DNA of 64,000 nucleotides from assembly GCF_005403045.1 (NCBI RefSeq), contig NZ_BJCL01000007.1, forward strand, positions 62,001 to 126,000. The letters run 5' to 3'. Both the position numbers and the translations under genes were made by a program. Shown piece by piece: positions 3,926 through 48,903 of this stretch. Position 1 is the first letter of the stretch. Every line of letters starts with the position of its first letter. The stretch is from Pseudaquabacterium pictum. GTDB taxonomy: Bacteria > Pseudomonadota > Gammaproteobacteria > Burkholderiales > Burkholderiaceae_C. The notes beneath the pieces are model-generated. The model was not told the DNA's origin. It saw nothing but the letters and a program-made list of their open reading frames with translations, and made no database searches.

Positions 3926-4012
3926 CCGCCGACACGGCGCTGCAGCGCCGGCCCGCGTGAAGTGTTCACGGCCACCCCCCGCCGCTGCGGGGGACAGCCA
4001 CGGCGGCCCGCC

Positions 4013-4020
4013 TCCTAGAG
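4013..4020 (+). promoter_or_regulatory. Promoter-like TCCTA box upstream of PEP-CTERM gene
   Basis: TCCTAGAG sits 56 bases before the ATG of the PEP-CTERM gene at 4076, after a GGCGGCCCGCC stretch. TAGAGT fits a -10 hexamer. A very similar arrangement (CGGGCCCCGC then TCCTAAGC) occurs at the same distance from the unlinked PEP-CTERM gene at 56075, suggesting a shared promoter type. No convincing -35 is seen. Confidence 0.4.
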
Positions 4021-4075
4021 TTCAGTCCATCCGCAGCCGACGCCGGCTGCAACCTTCTGACCGGACTGAACCGAC

Positions 4076-4810
4076 ATGACCACCGCCCCCTTCCCGCACC
4101 GCATCACCGCCGCTGCCGCCCTGGTGCTGGCCGCCCTCGCCGCCCCCGCCGCGCACGCCGCCGTGGTGGCCCAGACCGCCGCCCCGATCAGCTTCACCGG
4201 CAACGGTGACAACCAGGCCACCGGCCTGTTCAGCGCGGCACAGACCGGCGACCTCTACATCGCCATGACCGTGCGTCTGGAAGCCGGCGACCTGGGTGCC
4301 AACAACTTCCTGGCCCTGTGGCTCGACAACGTCACCACCGGCGCCCACACGAACCGCCCCAACGTGGGCCTGAAGTCGAACGAGGGCTCGCCCGGTGGCC
4401 TCGACTGGATGGTGCGCGGCAGCGGTGTCACCGGCAGCTTCGCACCGGACCAGGCCACCATCGGCAGCACCGCCACCCTGTGGGCCCACCTGTACAAGGC
4501 CGGCAACGCCAACTACAACCGCTACGACCTGTGGGTGAACCCCACCGGCAGCTGGACCGACGTGCTGGCCACGACCCCGGAAGCCCGCAGCACGCTGAAC
4601 TCGGGACTGAGCAGCATCAGCGGCTACGGCTTCCGCACGGCCAACCTGTCGGGCAACGACCGCTTCACCGTGCAGTCGATGGTGATCAGCAACACCGTGC
4701 CGCTGAACCTGGTGCCGGTGAGCGCGGTGCCCGAGCCCGGCAGCATCAGCCTGGCCCTGGCTGGCCTGGCGCTGGTCGGCGCGATGGCGCGCCGCCGCCG
4801 CGCAGCCTGA
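4076..4810 (+). CDS. PEP-CTERM sorting domain protein
   Basis: Exported protein of 244 aa. Residues 1-28 form a signal peptide ending at 'AHA'. The C-terminus carries the PEP-CTERM tripartite signal: 'VPEPGS', a hydrophobic stretch, then an arginine cluster (ARRRR). This tag is recognised by exosortase (EpsH/XrtA), which transfers the protein to the cell surface or matrix in exopolysaccharide-producing bacteria. The middle is rich in Gly, Ala, Thr and Asn and probably forms a beta-sandwich (the segment from 'NNFLALWLDN' to 'NRYDLWVNP'), but I recognise no enzyme motif. It ends directly against the convergent hydrolase gene. No exosortase gene is present in the window. Confidence 0.88.
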   Translation: MTTAPFPHRITAAAALVLAALAAPAAHAAVVAQTAAPISFTGNGDNQATGLFSAAQTGDLYIAMTVRLEAGDLGANNFLALWLDNVTTGAHTNRPNVGLKSNEGSPGGLDWMVRGSGVTGSFAPDQATIGSTATLWAHLYKAGNANYNRYDLWVNPTGSWTDVLATTPEARSTLNSGLSSISGYGFRTANLSGNDRFTVQSMVISNTVPLNLVPVSAVPEPGSISLALAGLALVGAMARRRRAA

Positions 4811-9249: not shown

Positions 9250-10983
9250 ATGGCTGACTACGACCTGATCCTGCGCGGCGGCACGGTGCACGACGGCCTG
9301 GGCTCCCCCGCCCGCGTGGCCGATGTGGCGGTGAAAGGCGGCCGCATCGCCGCGATCGCTCCGGTTGGCACGGTGGCCGGCACGGCGACCGAGGAGATCG
9401 ACGCCCGCGGCCTGCTGGTCACGCCCGGCTTCGTCGACGTGCACACCCACTACGACGGCCAGGCCACCTGGTCGCAGCGGCTGCAGCCGTCGTCGGGCCA
9501 TGGCGTCACCTCGGTGGTCATGGGCAACTGCGGCGTGGGCTTTGCGCCCTGCCGTCCGGCCGAGCGCAACCTGCTGGTGCAGGTGATGGAAGGCGTGGAA
9601 GACGTGCCCGAGGTGGTGATGACCGCCGGCCTGCCCTGGAACTGGGAGACCTTCCCCGAGTACCTGGACGCGCTGGCCGCGCGCCAGTTCGATGTGGATG
9701 TGGCGGCGCAGCTGCCGCATTCGGCGCTGCGGGTCTATGTGATGGGCGAGCGCGCCGCCGGCGGTGCGCCCACGGCCGATGACCTGGCCGCGATGCGCCG
9801 CCTCACCGCCCAGGCGATGGCCGCCGGCGCGCTGGGCGTCACCACCTCGCGCAACCTGATGCACCGCACCAAGGCCGGCGCACTGGCGCCCAGCCTGCAT
9901 TCGGAGGAAGACGAACTGGGCGCGCTGGCCGACGGCCTGAAGGACGCCGGCCGCGGCGTGTTCCAGCTGATCCCGGCGCCGATGGGCGATGCCGACGATG
10001 AATTTGCGCTGATGCGCCGCCTGGCCGAGCGCAGCGGCCGGCCGCTGTCGTACACCCTGATCCAGATGCCCACCGGCGACCGCGAGGCCTGGCGCAAGAG
10101 CCTGGCGGCGCTGAGCCAGGCAGCCGCCGACGGCCTGCCGATGCGTGCCCAAGTGGCGCCGCGCCCTGTGGGCATGTTCTACGGCCTGGACCTGAGCTTC
10201 CACGCCTTTGCCTACCACCCCAGCTACAAGGCCATCGCCCACCTGCCGCTGGCCGAGCGGGTGGCGCGCCTGCGCGACCCGGCCATGCGCGCCCGCCTGC
10301 TGTCTGAGCAGCCTCAGGACACCAACCCGGTGAACCTGAAGACGGTGAAGAGCTTCCAGTACAGCTACGCCTGGGGCTCCGACGCCGACTACGAGCCCGA
10401 CCTCTCGCAGCGGCTGGACCGCCTGGCCGAGGCCGCGGGCCAGTCGATCGAGGCATTCACCTACGACCTGCTGCTGGCCGACGATGGCCACGCCCTGTTC
10501 TACCAGCCCGGCGCCAACTACCGCGACGGCAACCTGGATGCGGTGCGCACCATGCTGGGCCACCCGCAGGCGGTGGTGGGCCTGGCCGACGGCGGTGCCC
10601 ATTACGGGATGATCTGCGACGCCAGCTTCCCCACCAGCTACCTGGCCCGCTGGGCCCGCGATGCGGCCGAGGCCGACCGCATCCCGCTGCCGCAGGCGGT
10701 GGCCGCGCTCACCAGCGTGCCGGCCAACCTGGCCGGCTTGGCCGACCGTGGCCGCCTGGTGCCCGGCGCCAAGGCCGACATCAACGTCATCAACCTGGCC
10801 CGGCTGCAGGTGCATGTGCCCACCGTCGTGCATGACCTGCCAGCGGGCGGGCGCCGCATGCACCAGCGCGCCAGCGGCTATGTGGCCACCATCGTGGCCG
10901 GCACGGTCACCTACCGCCACGGTGAAGCCACCGGCGCCCTGCCTGGCCGCCTGGTGCGCGGCAGCGTGGCCGTGACCGCCTGA
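9250..10983 (+). CDS. D-aminoacylase-type amidohydrolase
   Basis: 577 aa member of the N-acyl-D-amino-acid deacylase / amidohydrolase-3 family. The first metal site is visible as H65-x-H67 in 'DVHTHYDGQ' and C94 in 'MGNCGVGFAP', and 'GLADGGAHYGMICD' carries the late catalytic Asp. I do not see the HxR-E and SHLK motifs that supply the two middle histidines in classical D-aminoacylases, so the reaction may differ. Strong ribosome-binding site (aaggagacaccc) before ATG 9250. It lies between OYE and GST genes in one operon and is related to the gene at 13280-14971 on the opposite strand. Likely hydrolyses a C-N bond in an amide, ureide or cyclic imide. Confidence 0.85.
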   Translation: MADYDLILRGGTVHDGLGSPARVADVAVKGGRIAAIAPVGTVAGTATEEIDARGLLVTPGFVDVHTHYDGQATWSQRLQPSSGHGVTSVVMGNCGVGFAPCRPAERNLLVQVMEGVEDVPEVVMTAGLPWNWETFPEYLDALAARQFDVDVAAQLPHSALRVYVMGERAAGGAPTADDLAAMRRLTAQAMAAGALGVTTSRNLMHRTKAGALAPSLHSEEDELGALADGLKDAGRGVFQLIPAPMGDADDEFALMRRLAERSGRPLSYTLIQMPTGDREAWRKSLAALSQAAADGLPMRAQVAPRPVGMFYGLDLSFHAFAYHPSYKAIAHLPLAERVARLRDPAMRARLLSEQPQDTNPVNLKTVKSFQYSYAWGSDADYEPDLSQRLDRLAEAAGQSIEAFTYDLLLADDGHALFYQPGANYRDGNLDAVRTMLGHPQAVVGLADGGAHYGMICDASFPTSYLARWARDAAEADRIPLPQAVAALTSVPANLAGLADRGRLVPGAKADINVINLARLQVHVPTVVHDLPAGGRRMHQRASGYVATIVAGTVTYRHGEATGALPGRLVRGSVAVTA

Positions 10984-13279: not shown

Positions 13280-14971
13280 CTAGCCGCGAACCAGACGCCC
13301 CGGCGTCTGGCCGGTCAGTTCGTCGTCGCGCAGCACCTCGGTGCCGGCCACGAAGGTGTGCCGGTACCCGCGGGCGCGCTGCAGCAGGCGGCGGCCGCCG
13401 GTGGGCAGGTCATAGACCACCTCCGGCGGCAGCAGGTCCAGCGCGGCGAAATCGATGATGTTGATGTCGGCACGCTGGCCCGGCGCCAGCCTGCCGCGGT
13501 CCGTCAGGCCGTAGACCGCAGCGGTGTCCTGCGTCTGCTTCTTCACCAGCGCCTCCAACGGCAGCTGCGGACCGCGGCGGCGGTCGCGCGCCCAGTGCTT
13601 GAGCAGGAAGGTGGGCCCGGCGCCATCGCAGATCAGGCCCACATGGGCGCCCGCATCGCCCAGGCCCATCACCGTGGCCGGGTCGGCCAGCATCTGCTGC
13701 ACCACGCCGAAGTCACCACCGGTGTAGTTCTCGAACGGGTGCAGCAGCAGGCCCTTGCCGTCGTCGGCCAGCAGCGCATCGAGTGCCAGCGCCCAGGCGC
13801 TGGTGCCGGCGCTGGCGGCGCGGGCGGCCAGGCTCTGCTCCGGCGCGGGCTCGTAGTCCAGCACCGGCGCCATGGCGAAGGTGCGGTGGAAGGCGGTGTC
13901 GAACCAGCGGGTCAGCGCGTCGGTGGGGCGCTCGTCGACGAGGCGCTGGCGCAGCGCGCCATCGGCCTGCAGGCGCTCGACACGCTGACGTGGTGTCAGC
14001 GGGCGCAGCGGTTCCCAGGCCGGGTGGTTGTCGAACGGGTTGCGGCTGGTCTCCAGGCCGAACAGCACGCCGATGCTCTTGGCGCCGACCTGGCCGGTCA
14101 CGTCCAGCCCGGCGCGGCGGGCGGCATGGATCTGGTCCAGCGTGCGGCGCCACAGGTCGGGCGCGTTGTCCACCTGCAGCAGCAGCAGCGACATCGGCCG
14201 GCCGGCGGCCTCGGCGGCCATGCGCAGGATCTCGAAATCGCCGTCGCCGAAATCGGAGTTGACCTCCAGCACGCCCTTGCCCGCGCGCCGCAGCGCACCG
14301 GCGATGGCGAACAGCTCGGGCTCGGCCGCCGTCAGGCTGGGGGTGTAGCGGCCATCACGCGCCCGGTGCTTGGTGGTGCGTGAGGTGGTGATGCCCAGCG
14401 CGCCGGCGCGCAGCGCCTCTTCGGCCAGCGCGCCCATCTGCGCCAGCTCGGCCTCGGCGGGCCGGGCCAGGTGCTCGGCGCCGCGCTCGCCCATGGCGTA
14501 GAAGCGCAGCGCGGCATGCGGCAGCTGGGCGCCGATGTCCATCGTGTACTGGCGGGCCTCCAGCGCGTCCAGGTACTCGGGGAAGGACTCCCAGTTCCAG
14601 CTGATGCCTTCGGCCAGCACCGTGCCGGGGATGTCTTCCACGCCCTCCATCAGGTTGATCAGGTAATCACGAGCGCCGGGCTTCACCGGCGCGAAGCCGA
14701 CGCCGCAGTTGCCGAACACCGCCGTGGTCACGCCATGCCAACAGCTGGGCGTGAGCGCGCTGTCCCAGGTGGCCTGGCCGTCGTAGTGGGTGTGGATGTC
14801 GACGAAGCCGGGCGTCACCAGCAGGCCGCTGGCGTCGATCACCCGCCGCGCCGCGCCCAGGCCGCTGCCCACCGCCACGATGCGCCCGCCCTGCACCGCC
14901 ACATCGGCCTGGCGGGCTGGCGCGCCGGTGCCGTCGACGACGGTGCCGCCCTGGATGAGGATGTCGTGCAT
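13280..14971 (-). CDS. D-aminoacylase-type amidohydrolase (second copy)
   Basis: 563 aa amidohydrolase related to the product of 9250-10983: both share 'LVTPGFVD(V/I)HTHYDGQATW', the NCGVGFAP metal motif, 'WNWE(T/S)FPEYLDAL' and a late 'D-GAH-G-ICD' motif. Here the metal ligands are H60, H62 and C89. As in the other copy, the middle histidines of classical D-aminoacylases are not apparent. Start at 14971 (MHDILIQGG) gives the standard N-terminus; the frame extends upstream without matching sequence. Divergent from the second MFS gene (15069), mirroring the association of the first copy with the MFS gene at 5709. Confidence 0.85.
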   Translation of the reverse strand: MHDILIQGGTVVDGTGAPARQADVAVQGGRIVAVGSGLGAARRVIDASGLLVTPGFVDIHTHYDGQATWDSALTPSCWHGVTTAVFGNCGVGFAPVKPGARDYLINLMEGVEDIPGTVLAEGISWNWESFPEYLDALEARQYTMDIGAQLPHAALRFYAMGERGAEHLARPAEAELAQMGALAEEALRAGALGITTSRTTKHRARDGRYTPSLTAAEPELFAIAGALRRAGKGVLEVNSDFGDGDFEILRMAAEAAGRPMSLLLLQVDNAPDLWRRTLDQIHAARRAGLDVTGQVGAKSIGVLFGLETSRNPFDNHPAWEPLRPLTPRQRVERLQADGALRQRLVDERPTDALTRWFDTAFHRTFAMAPVLDYEPAPEQSLAARAASAGTSAWALALDALLADDGKGLLLHPFENYTGGDFGVVQQMLADPATVMGLGDAGAHVGLICDGAGPTFLLKHWARDRRRGPQLPLEALVKKQTQDTAAVYGLTDRGRLAPGQRADINIIDFAALDLLPPEVVYDLPTGGRRLLQRARGYRHTFVAGTEVLRDDELTGQTPGRLVRG

Positions 14972-37332: not shown

Positions 37333-37414
37333 CCCCCCCGAAGCGCCTGCGGCGCTCCCCCCCAGGGGGGCGACGCCAGCGGCCCGGCGAAGCCGGTTCC
37401 GCGGCGTCCGTTTG
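37333..37414 (+). repeat. Dispersed intergenic repeat, copy A (ahcY/metF)
   Basis: 82-base element beginning at the first base after the ahcY stop. It contains three stems in order: GCGCC-TGC-GGCGC, CCCCCC-A-GGGGGG and CCGGC-GAA-GCCGG, then TTCCGCGGCGTCCG. Copies B (41834-41916) and C (47150-47231, inverted) share the same order. All three lie between co-directional genes. Confidence 0.85.
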
Positions 37415-37482
37415 ATCTGCAGCGCCCTGGTGGCGCTGCTTTCATTTCTGCGCGCGACACACGCGCCCAACTGGAGAGCCCC

Positions 37483-41833: not shown

Positions 41834-41916
41834 CCACCCCGTAGCGGCTGACGCCGCTCCCCCTCAAGGGGGCGACCCCAGTGGCCCGGCGTAGCCGGTT
41901 CCACGGGGTCCGCTTG
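41834..41916 (+). repeat. Dispersed intergenic repeat, copy B (frcB/frcC)
   Basis: Starts two bases after the frcB stop. Same stem order as copy A with compensating changes (GCGGC-TGAC-GCCGC, CCCCCT-CA-AGGGGG, CCGGC-GTA-GCCGG), which argues that the RNA fold is what is conserved. The most diverged of the three copies. Confidence 0.8.
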
Positions 41917-41987
41917 ACAGGCGCGCGGTGCGCGCCAGCGGGGTGCTGCGCACCGCCGCGGTTCACTCACTCCAGCCAGGACGCCCC

Positions 41988-45909: not shown

Positions 45910-46845
45910 TCAGTCGTTCATCAGCTGCAGCAGGCTGGGGCCGCGGCCGACGTCGGGCAACTCGGGCGGCGTCCAGGTCACGCCTTCCTCGGCGGCCCAG
46001 CGGGCCAGCGTGCCGTCGTCGCGGGCGCGGCTGATCACCGCGTCCAGCGCCGGGCGCACGGTGGCGTCGGAGGCCAGCGTGACGAAGCCCAGGTTCATGC
46101 CCAGCGGACGTCGCCAGACGGCGGCCTCGAGCCGGACACCGGGATGCTGCACCCGCCAGCCGTCGAACAGCGCCAGCGGCGCCATCACCGCGTCGAAGCG
46201 CGGCGCCGTGCCGGCGGGCGGCGCGGCCAGCTCGTCCAGCGGGTTCTCGCGCTGGTTCAGCGTCACCACGCGGCTGCGCAGCGTGCCGAACTTCCAGCCC
46301 ATCGCCACCGCGCCACCCAGCGTGCCGGCCACCACGCCGATCTTGCGGCTGCCCAGATCGTTCAGGCTGGCCAGCGGCGGTGCGCCGGCCGGCAGCACCA
46401 CGCCCAGCGCGGTGCCGATGTAGCCACGGCTGGGCGCCATGGCCTGCAGGGGGATGTAGGGCCGGTCACGCCGGCGCTTGGCGCCAGGGTAGTCGGGCGT
46501 GCGCGCGCTGGGGCGGGTGGGCGGGCCGAACTCGCCGGTCACCAGCGGGAAGCCGCTGACCGCGTCGCAGACGCCCGCCGCGAGCAGCGCCGCCACCTCG
46601 TGGGTGAGCGTGCTCTCCTTCTCGTAGGACGTCTCGAAGGGCACCAGCTTCAGCGGGCGGCCCAGGGCATCGGCCGCGGCCTGGGCGATGCGCACGTCCA
46701 GCCCGCGCGGCTGGCCGGCCACCAGGTGCGACAGCGGCGGGTTGTCGGCGGCCACGCACACCGCCAGCGGCGCGGGCTGGGCCAGCGCGGCGCCACCGGC
46801 CAGGGCTGCGACCCAGGCCAGCGCGCGGCTAGTTCTCCTTGCCAC
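45910..46845 (-). CDS. XoxJ/MxaJ-like quinoprotein-associated periplasmic binding protein
   Basis: 311 aa with a signal peptide (residues 1-22). Solute-binding-protein family 3 fold: 'LAVCVAADNPPLSH', 'GLDVRIAQAAADALGRPLKLVPFETSYEKES', 'VCDAVSGFPLVTGEF'. This matches the 'quinoprotein dehydrogenase-associated' ABC-like binding proteins (XoxJ/MxaJ), thought to help maturation of PQQ alcohol dehydrogenases rather than transport. Third gene of the dehydrogenase - cytochrome c - XoxJ-like operon; it overlaps the cytochrome gene by 17 bases. Confidence 0.85.
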   Translation of the reverse strand: MARRTSRALAWVAALAGGAALAQPAPLAVCVAADNPPLSHLVAGQPRGLDVRIAQAAADALGRPLKLVPFETSYEKESTLTHEVAALLAAGVCDAVSGFPLVTGEFGPPTRPSARTPDYPGAKRRRDRPYIPLQAMAPSRGYIGTALGVVLPAGAPPLASLNDLGSRKIGVVAGTLGGAVAMGWKFGTLRSRVVTLNQRENPLDELAAPPAGTAPRFDAVMAPLALFDGWRVQHPGVRLEAAVWRRPLGMNLGFVTLASDATVRPALDAVISRARDDGTLARWAAEEGVTWTPPELPDVGRGPSLLQLMND

Positions 46846-47236
46846 CGCGGCTACCCACGTAGGCCCACAGCACGGCCAGTTGCTCCGGCGTCAGCGCATC
46901 CTTGAACGAGGGCATGTTGCCCTTGCCCTGGACCACGCTTTGATGGAAGCGCTCCGCCTGGTCGGTCGGGAACTTGCGCAGGTCATACACCGTGGTGCCG
47001 GCATTGACCATGTTGCGGCCGTGGCACTGCGAACAGGTGCGGTGGAACTGCTCCCGCCCGGCCTCGATCTGCGCGGCCTCGAACCGCCCACCCGTGGCTT
47101 GCGCCAGGGTGGACAGCGGCAAGATCGCCAGCAGGACAACGGCCGAACCAAGCGGCCGTCGCGGAACCGGCTTTGCCGGGCCGCTGGCGGCGCCCCCCTG
47201 GGGGGGAGCGCCGCAGGCGCTTCGGGGGGGGATCAT
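46829..47236 (-). CDS. Cytochrome c (XoxG-like) with a repeat-derived N-terminus
   Basis: 135 aa class I c-type cytochrome, the probable electron acceptor of the PQQ dehydrogenase. C68-S-Q-C71-H72 binds haem and M108 in 'GNMPSF' is the likely axial ligand. The ATG at 47236 overlaps the dehydrogenase stop (ATGA). The first ~30 codons are the dispersed repeat read in frame; they supply 'KPVPRRP', the charged region of the signal peptide, before the hydrophobic core 'AVVLLAILPLSTLA'. No other ATG or GTG start exists between repeat and core, so the repeat appears to be part of the gene. Confidence 0.82.
   Translation of the reverse strand: MIPPRSACGAPPQGGAASGPAKPVPRRPLGSAVVLLAILPLSTLAQATGGRFEAAQIEAGREQFHRTCSQCHGRNMVNAGTTVYDLRKFPTDQAERFHQSVVQGKGNMPSFKDALTPEQLAVLWAYVGSRGGKEN
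47150..47231 (-). repeat. Dispersed repeat, copy C, inside the cytochrome c reading frame
   Basis: Minus-strand copy, about 90% identical to copy A by eye, between the PQQ dehydrogenase stop and the cytochrome signal peptide core. It keeps the GCGCC/GGCGC, CCCCCC/GGGGGG and CCGGC/GCCGG stems and has no stop codon in the cytochrome frame. Confidence 0.85.
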
Positions 47237-48903
47237 TTCAAGGCGAAGGTCCAGACCGAGCCACCCGCAGGCGTGGCGGCCATGCGCTCGTCACCCAGCA
47301 GGGCCCACACGCCGCCGGCACCGGCGGTGATGGTGACGTACTGCTTGCCCTTGTGCTCCCAGGTCACCGGCAGGCCGATGATGCCGGTGCCGACATTGAA
47401 CTCATAGAGCTTCTTGCCGCTGGTGGCGTCGACGGCCATGAACTCGCCGGTGGCCGCGCCGGTGAACACCAGGTTGCCCGCGGTGGACAAGGTGCCGGCC
47501 ATGCTCGGCTGGCCGGGCCAGGCCATCTGCCACTTGCTCTTGCCGGTCATCGGGTCGATGGCGCTCAGGTAGCCGTGGGGCTGGTCCTTGGGCATCATCA
47601 CGCCGCGGAAGTTGATGCCCAGGTACCACTCGCCGCGCTTGTACTCGGGCTTGGCCAGCTGGTACGGCCAGGCGATGTTCAGCGTGTTGGCATAGGCCAG
47701 GCCGGTGGCCGGGTTCCAGGACATCGGCGTCCAGTTCTTGCCGCCCAGCACCGACGGCCAGACCATCTCGTCGCCACCAGCACGGATGTTCTTGGTGACC
47801 TGGCTCTCCACCGGCCGGCCGGTGGCCATGTCGATCTTGTCGGCCCAGTTCACCTTCACGTAGGGGTTGGCGGCCAGCAGCTTGCCGTTGGCGCGGTCGA
47901 GCACGTAGAAGAAGCCGTTGCGGTTGGCCTGCGCCAGCACCTTGCGCGGCTTGCCGTCGATCTTGATGTCGACCAGCATGCCCACCTCGGTGGCGTCGTA
48001 GTCGTACGGGTCGTTCGGGCTGAACTGGTAGTGCCAGACCAACTCGCCGGTCTTCGGCCGGATGGCCACCACCGAGCACACGTACAGGTTGTCGCCCATG
48101 CGCACCGTGGGGTTCCAGGGACCGGCATTGCCGGTGCCCCAGTACACCAGATCGAGGTCGGGGTCGTAGGCACCGGTCAGCCAGGTGGGCGCGCCGCCCT
48201 TGCTGTGGGTGTCGCCGGGCCAGGTGTCGCCACCCTTCTCGCCCGGGGCGGCCGTGGTGTAGAACTTCCACAGGTGCTTGCCGGTGGCCGGATCCCAGCC
48301 GTCGATGAAGCCGCGGGTGCCGTACTCGCCGCCGGCGATGCCGGTGATCACCACGCCGTTGGCGATCAGCGGCGCACTGGTCATCGCATGGCCGTCCTGG
48401 TAGTTGGCGGCCTTCATCTTCCACAGCGTCTTGCCGGTCTTGGGGTCCATCGCCATGACGTGGGCATCCAGCGTCACGCGGAACAGCTTGCCGTCGTAGA
48501 TGGCCGCGCCGCGGTTCAGGATGCCGCAGCAGGCGTACTTGAACACGTCCTGCGGCAGCTCGATCTCCTGCTTCCACAGCTGCTTGCCGGTGAGCGGGTC
48601 GAGCGCCACGGTGCTGTTGAAGGTGGTGACGTACATCACCCCCTCATGGATGATGGGCTGGCTTTCCTGGCCCTGCGGATTGTTCAGGCTGTAGCTCCAG
48701 GCGGGCTGCAGCTTGGCGGCGTTGCCGGCGTTGATCTGCTTGAGCGGGCTGTAGCGCTGGTTGTTGTAGCCCATGCCGTAGGTCAGCACATCGCCGGGCG
48801 TGCTGGCGTCGGCCTTCAGCGCGGCAGCGGATTGCGCCAGCACCGGGGGTGCGGTCAGGGATGCCAGGGCCGCACCGGCGGCCAGCCATCGGGTGATGTT
48901 CAT
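47233..48903 (-). CDS. PQQ-dependent alcohol dehydrogenase, lanthanide-type metal motif
   Basis: 556 aa periplasmic quinoprotein (eight-bladed propeller); signal peptide residues 1-23. Tryptophan-docking repeats ('ALDPLTGKQLWK', 'AMDPKTGKTLWKM', 'GWDPATGKHLWKF') recur, and the adjacent C125-C126 pair that forms the rare vicinal disulphide over PQQ is present. Metal ligands are E193, N259 and catalytic D301; D303 two residues later ('PYDYDATE') is the extra Asp characteristic of lanthanide-dependent XoxF/ExaF/PedH enzymes, where calcium enzymes have Ala or Ser. Start 48903 follows GAGGAGAcagtgccc. Oxidises primary alcohols or aldehydes and passes electrons to the cytochrome encoded next. Confidence 0.9.
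   Translation of the reverse strand: MNITRWLAAGAALASLTAPPVLAQSAAALKADASTPGDVLTYGMGYNNQRYSPLKQINAGNAAKLQPAWSYSLNNPQGQESQPIIHEGVMYVTTFNSTVALDPLTGKQLWKQEIELPQDVFKYACCGILNRGAAIYDGKLFRVTLDAHVMAMDPKTGKTLWKMKAANYQDGHAMTSAPLIANGVVITGIAGGEYGTRGFIDGWDPATGKHLWKFYTTAAPGEKGGDTWPGDTHSKGGAPTWLTGAYDPDLDLVYWGTGNAGPWNPTVRMGDNLYVCSVVAIRPKTGELVWHYQFSPNDPYDYDATEVGMLVDIKIDGKPRKVLAQANRNGFFYVLDRANGKLLAANPYVKVNWADKIDMATGRPVESQVTKNIRAGGDEMVWPSVLGGKNWTPMSWNPATGLAYANTLNIAWPYQLAKPEYKRGEWYLGINFRGVMMPKDQPHGYLSAIDPMTGKSKWQMAWPGQPSMAGTLSTAGNLVFTGAATGEFMAVDATSGKKLYEFNVGTGIIGLPVTWEHKGKQYVTITAGAGGVWALLGDERMAATPAGGSVWTFALK

Follow-up and report, generated by a model that had tools for sequence, protein, structure and literature searches.

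N-termini derived from REPs and MITEs are already known. In Yersinia, a YPAL/RU-2 MITE forms part of the predicted signal peptide of YPO1552 (Delihas; PMC2229807). Some GTAG- and CGTC-tagged REPs provide ORFs with TAG stops, and some are located at NH2 termini (PMC3733652). Rickettsia palindromic elements (RPE-1) of 105-146 bp are found within protein genes (PMC2229807, PMC3733652). For E. coli, REPs positioned within 15 nt of a stop codon were counted as 446/4,072 (ca. 11%), and a study cited in the same source gave 260/496 (PMC12306157). REP units are 20-40 bp in size (PMC3733652) and as a rule occur in >100 copies per genome (PMC2817692).

The locus examined here is located in a 64,000-nucleotide stretch of DNA from Pseudaquabacterium pictum (hereafter, the window), and with high confidence we explain it as follows: a REP-like, stop-adjacent repeat of ca. 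84 nt fell into a tight gene junction and is read as the dispensable N-terminus of a cytochrome. Like YPAL/RU-2, the repeat is a small mobile palindromic element that contributes, in frame, to a predicted signal peptide. The Yersinia case concerns a putative new exported protein, whereas conserved genes are affected here, with their n-regions apparently exchanged or extended; overlapping or adjoining stop-start junctions, empty sites in relatives, and the involvement of several genes also distinguish the present system. With the GTAG/CGTC REPs it shares short palindromes near gene ends, some of them at NH2 termini or providing TAG stops. It differs from them in its length, in its three consensus stems, and in the lack of a Y1 transposase match in the genome; further, capture is backed here by phase and by empty sites. 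At the place corresponding to the tag, 6/37 copies read GTAG and 22/37 GAAG. RPE-1 is likewise a palindromic element in frame in conserved protein genes. However, RPEs lie within such genes, while the position of this repeat behind stop codons brings it into contact with the start of the following gene or, for two copies, with the end of the preceding one. The E. coli REPs are similar in being stem-loops close behind stops; the corresponding figure here is 84 of 104 copies, in a fixed orientation. Measured against REPs in general, the repeat is long (ca. 84 nt with three stems) and less abundant (ca. 37 copies here, up to 73 in a congener). No description of it was found among the titles and abstract openings of open-licence papers that were searched. 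We believe that three aspects are new: a stop-adjacent, oriented repeat that is spread family-wide, filled and empty sites with the phase kept, and recurrence.

The cytochrome c precursor gene (46829-47236, minus strand) was present in the ORF list with 135 residues, which include a CSQCH haem motif and a PF13442 domain (E = 5.7e-12). The gene upstream (47233-48903, minus strand; also in the ORF list) codes for a PQQ-dependent alcohol dehydrogenase of the methanol/ethanol family, as judged by a TIGR03075 match of 637 bits vs. a cut-off of 480; its start was placed at the internal ATG that opens its signal peptide. The dehydrogenase TGA (47235-47233) overlaps the cytochrome ATG (47236-47234) to yield ATGA. 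This overlap had been reported in a first-pass annotation, and it was confirmed in both the sequence and the ORF list. Inspection by eye identified no clear Shine-Dalgarno sequence ahead of this ATG. The same annotation had called ca. 28 in-frame codons a repeat copy followed by the signal-peptide core, and residues 3-30 indeed match the ca. 84-nt repeat in the repeat alignments (47147-47230, minus strand). The hydrophobic core, SAVVLLAILPLSTLAQA, begins directly thereafter at residue 31. Together with the AQA cleavage region, it occupies residues 31-47 (47096-47146, minus strand) according to the translation and hydropathy. Composition alone (basic n-region, hydrophobic core, AXA-type site) was used to judge the signal peptide; it has the make-up of a Sec signal peptide, with an n-region charge of +4, a core (VVLLAILPLSTL) having a mean hydropathy of 2.55, and AQA. 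Among the basic residues, R5, K22, R26 and R27 are coded by the repeat.

The ATG at 47236 is the sole in-frame ATG, GTG or TTG from the upstream in-frame stop to the signal core. The window sequence contains none of these codons in frame between the repeat and the core, as had been stated for ATG and GTG; the first canonical alternative is a TTG (47120-47122, minus strand) at residue 39, which is inside the core. A member of a structured repeat family is therefore located in frame between the only canonical start, at which initiation would occur, and the export signal, and to this extent the proposal that a REP-like element has become coding sequence is upheld. At the other end of the gene, the cytochrome stop overlaps the GTG start (46845) of the next listed ORF (overlap 46829-46845), which has a weak, sub-cut-off match to a solute-binding protein family. 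Overlapping junctions may thus be used by the operon at either end of the cytochrome gene.

As suggested at first pass, the repeat was sought in orthologous cytochrome genes. The dehydrogenase-cytochrome pair was detected in 10 of the 21 genomes of the genus (including this one, G000). Six of the ten (G000, G306, G300, G305, G309, and G314) have the repeat in the same place, in phase with a start at the stop codon; it is absent from the site in the other four (G310, G312, G308, and G296). The filled sites vary in form. In G306, a second palindromic element has been inserted, and the region is 27 codons longer than in the window; G305 has a GTG start; G309 has a degenerate copy and a GTG start; and G314 has further inserted sequence. 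At the empty sites of G310 and G312 (L075 and L074, respectively), the same ATGA start leads straight into a normal signal peptide, and the same ATGA without a repeat was found in the orthologues L012, L015 and L017 (other genera), L031, and L033. Because empty sites have this ATGA, the start (47234-47236, minus strand) and the coupling predate the repeat, which is ruled out as the source of the start codon; on the sequence comparison, it entered an overlapping start that already existed. Thus, where the repeat had been credited with start, coupling and basic n-region, the n-region is retained and the other two are ancestral.

In 20 further orthologues beyond the ten, BLAST (E 1e-4, at which a very degenerate copy could escape) located the repeat only in Hydrogenophaga L029, a metagenome-assembled genome, where it is out of phase and followed by a new ATG. 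Repeat copies flank the cytochrome gene in this record (4001-4070 and 4529-4604). Duplicate records were counted once (L010=L027=L081, L015=L032, L017=L034, L021=L079, and L022=L080); L036 and L037 were left out as non-orthologues. For the hydrolase gene discussed below, L140 was left out, since its match begins too deep in the protein for the start to be read. The flanks differ between empty and filled sites. In a tree constructed from 400 dehydrogenase codons, the window and G306 form a pair, with G310 (empty) as their sister, and G312 (empty) groups with G300 (filled). When copies from G000, G300 and G011 were compared, the best match to the window copy was a further copy from the same genome (96%), whilst the G300 copy was about equally distant from several G000 copies. 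On the tree and the copy similarities, the six cytochrome insertions may stem either from one insertion with losses or from several.

According to the preferred explanation, the ATGA overlap would be the older feature, and a repeat copy would later have settled behind the dehydrogenase stop; because stop and start overlap, it would have landed past the start codon but ahead of the export signal. Ribosomes finishing the dehydrogenase would restart at the ATGA and read on through the repeat, which would yield residues 3-30, as is suggested by the open frames of most copies and by the phase kept at this site. In the filled genes here, the core follows immediately on the repeat, and a longer, basic n-region therefore seems to have taken the place of the native one (the n-regions of empty sites are shorter). 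Cleavage of the signal peptide would be expected to take the repeat-coded part with it, and this would be why the cytochrome tolerates that part. Initiation at the ATG at 47236, reinitiation, export, cleavage, and replacement of the n-region are all steps that we infer. The lack of a clear Shine-Dalgarno sequence counts against this explanation, and so does the fold: a very stable structure right behind the start could, as modeled, lower translation. For the window copy alone, the best prediction (-50.4 kcal/mol, z -2.6) has stems 1 and 2 rearranged relative to the consensus.

Two other copies of the repeat are present in the window, both on the plus strand. One (37333-37416; L094) was identified in the repeat alignments directly behind a TGA stop; the other (41835-41918; L095), identified by the core pattern and alignments, is 2 nt behind a TAA stop. 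The captured copy (47230-47149) and the former (37333-37414) are 94% identical across 82 nt. A BLAST search of the genome, in which 40 of 180 candidates were scored, yielded at least 37 matches, including one fragment. A 28-nt core pattern had 38 matches in the genome, 36 of them with at most one mismatch; the reversed control pattern had 0. At this stringency (≤1 mismatch), the core was present in 159 genomes of a 299-genome sample of the family (87/141 genera, up to 70 copies) and in 21/21 genomes of the genus (1 to 73 copies each). An Rfam search with six repeat loci returned two sub-threshold matches, neither of which covers the repeat. In a plasmid collection, four records (in Variovorax, Comamonas, and Diaphorobacter) contained partial matches, and no annotated gene lay beneath any of them. 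The Y1 transposase (RAYT, PF01797) has 0 matches in G000, and a resident PF01797 RAYT is thereby ruled out as the mobility source within this genome. PF01797 was present in 13 of the 21 genus genomes; its presence does not track repeat copy number, and it was not found in the repeat-rich G011, G306, G310 and G312 (the last three being 70-88% complete). At one site (L104 1441-1611, minus strand, G000:C19:54546-54710), a single stop codon is followed by two copies arranged head to tail. In three records a second palindromic element seems to have been inserted in the first with the frame left open (L073 1339-1499; L079 from 2089 downward, minus strand; L126 1289-1445).

The positions of 104 copies from five genomes were scored (36/37 copies in G000 and, in regions chosen by the analyst, 21/37 in G011, 24/42 in G300, 13/14 in G059, and 10/13 in G085), and coding frames were assigned using a codon model trained on the window alone. 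A same-strand coding stop was located ≤15 nt from the 5' anchor of the repeat in 84 copies (33/36, 15/21, 19/24, 11/13, and 6/10 per genome, respectively). The mirror control, i.e. an opposite-strand coding stop ≤15 nt from the 3' end, gave 6/104. With a limit of ≤40 nt, the values were 88 vs. 14. In nearly every copy, the coding frame ends a few bases from the first C-run. The element is stop-adjacent and oriented like the upstream gene; either targeting or selection may account for this. In L099 (G000:C7:178287) and L114 (C24:52307), the best-scoring upstream coding frame extends into a CCCCGTAGCG variant of the repeat and terminates at its TAG, such that the upstream gene appears to owe its stop and final residues to the repeat.

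The palindromic stem-loop fold is also conserved. A three-stem structure was drawn from one copy and then tested on an alignment of 37 copies, in which it pairs 93.2% of cells (stem 1, 81.5% only); control structures slid along the alignment pair just 39 to 52%. Compensatory changes on both sides of pairs were found in 52 cells vs. 15.1 in shuffles, and covariation was 0.161 vs. 0.059 (0/500 shuffles as high in either case). Further pair types showed no excess (18 vs. 17.9). Stop adjacency in one orientation and these compensatory changes could mean that the element persists behind the dehydrogenase stop because of a function in RNA, such as ribosome stalling or mRNA stability or processing, with the coding as a passive by-product; a role of this kind has been proposed for the E. 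coli REPs located within 15 nt of stop codons (PMC12306157). This is compatible with the preferred explanation, and we consider it a reasonable possibility, although one to which we give distinctly less than even weight. The empty sites of G310 and G312, which have 42 and 73 copies elsewhere, imply that the repeat is not needed at this site. Further, conservation of the fold could equally serve mobility, and the shuffles ignore kinship among the copies.

In this genome, two further genes for exported proteins have captured the repeat in phase. One codes for a lipoprotein-like protein, has its start in an ATGA overlap, and reads MSSPPKRLRRSPPGGRPQRPGRAGSAAAAWLAALALTGC. The other, a PF00561 hydrolase gene, starts just behind a TGA and reads via the repeat and an inserted element to AAAAWVGALLCLAPLLASA. 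Both use a different frame of the repeat than does the cytochrome. The lipoprotein was found in eight genus genomes: the repeat is in phase in four (G000, G306, G311, and, in degenerate form, G227), and four are empty. In G311, the frame switches within the repeat yet stays open. The hydrolase was found in 15 genus genomes, and its start region was readable in 14; the repeat is present in two (G000 and G306), with a shortened copy and a GTG start in G306.

Open frames through the repeat are not special. Of 36 copies, 34, 34 and 28 are open in the respective frames and 26 in all three, and frame openness was accordingly rejected as evidence in itself. Phase is what chance does not give. It was kept in 12/12 repeat-bearing genus orthologues at the three loci; three of the 12 are genes of this genome that were chosen for their captured look, and the other nine (9/9) were chosen by the mature protein alone. 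A length change free of the frame would keep the phase one time in three. The haem-motif index in the six filled cytochrome orthologues is 70, 75, 77, 97, 97, and 135; it varies while the phase stays, so the phase has survived several length changes. Because these changes are not all independent and three cases were preselected, no exact probability is given.

The kept phase bears on a second alternative, in which the repeat is an untranslated intercistronic hairpin and the cytochrome starts behind it, at the TTG at 47122 or at a non-standard codon. A published caution holds that translation may start downstream of many REPs assigned to NH2 termini, which would make these REPs extragenic (PMC3733652). 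Moreover, an ATG follows the repeat in Hydrogenophaga L029, G300 and G314, and a TTG just precedes the core in G309; the repeat need not be translated in these three congeners and may be untranslated there (3/6 filled orthologues). Yet G000, G306 and G305 have neither ATG, GTG nor TTG from the end of the complete repeat to the core, and the same holds for 4/4 repeat-bearing lipoprotein orthologues. If translation began at the window's TTG, the mature part would be preceded by no more than MPLSTLAQA, which is short for a signal. With the phase kept as well, we regard this alternative as unlikely. It is very improbable that the insertion inactivated the cytochrome gene and left an open frame by chance: the composition of the copies keeps most of their frames open and a strong hairpin lies behind the start, but the haem motif is intact, the phase was kept through length changes, and the mature part is under purifying selection (dN/dS 0.16-0.27 in 7/7 congener comparisons, including that with the repeat-bearing sister G306).

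An automated scan of the 104 copies identified seven captures in the five genomes, which is a lower bound obtained with arbitrary thresholds. The first-pass annotation had presented the cytochrome as a visible case of a REP-like element turned coding; this understated the matter, as capture recurs at other genes. In addition to the cytochrome, lipoprotein and hydrolase, the scan returned UrtC and SpoVR (both in G300), a DsrJ-like multihaem protein (G059), and a GspJ-like pseudopilin (G085). UrtC and SpoVR pass their NCBIfam cut-offs, and the DsrJ and GspJ matches are below cut-off; in all four, the captured part falls outside the family profile. In UrtC, the repeat begins five codons past the ATG. 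Orthologues were compared for the cytochrome, lipoprotein and hydrolase; each of these four other captures comes from a single genome. The notion that capture is limited to exported proteins was rejected, given SpoVR and the membrane permease UrtC. We tentatively propose, at a little short of even confidence, that the repeat has a built-in preference for the bases behind stops and so, where genomes are dense with overlapping or adjoining genes, is a recurrent generator of N-termini, replacing signal-peptide n-regions, the fronts of prepilin leaders, and the fronts of membrane and cytosolic proteins, in at least two frames and in numerous genera of a single family.

Within one genus, the same locus occurs filled, empty, nested and degenerate. 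These versions make it possible to trace directly how a mobile repeat turns into coding sequence, and they join two topics that are usually kept apart, i.e. repeats behind stops and new N-termini by insertion. They also carry a warning for annotation: start calls in repeat-rich genomes may be wrongly "corrected" past or into the repeat.

Elsewhere in the window, positions 9260-9866 and 14364-14967, separated by ca. 5 kb, match each other in inverted orientation with 71-84% similarity over ca. 600 nt, and they are probably paralogous genes on opposite strands.
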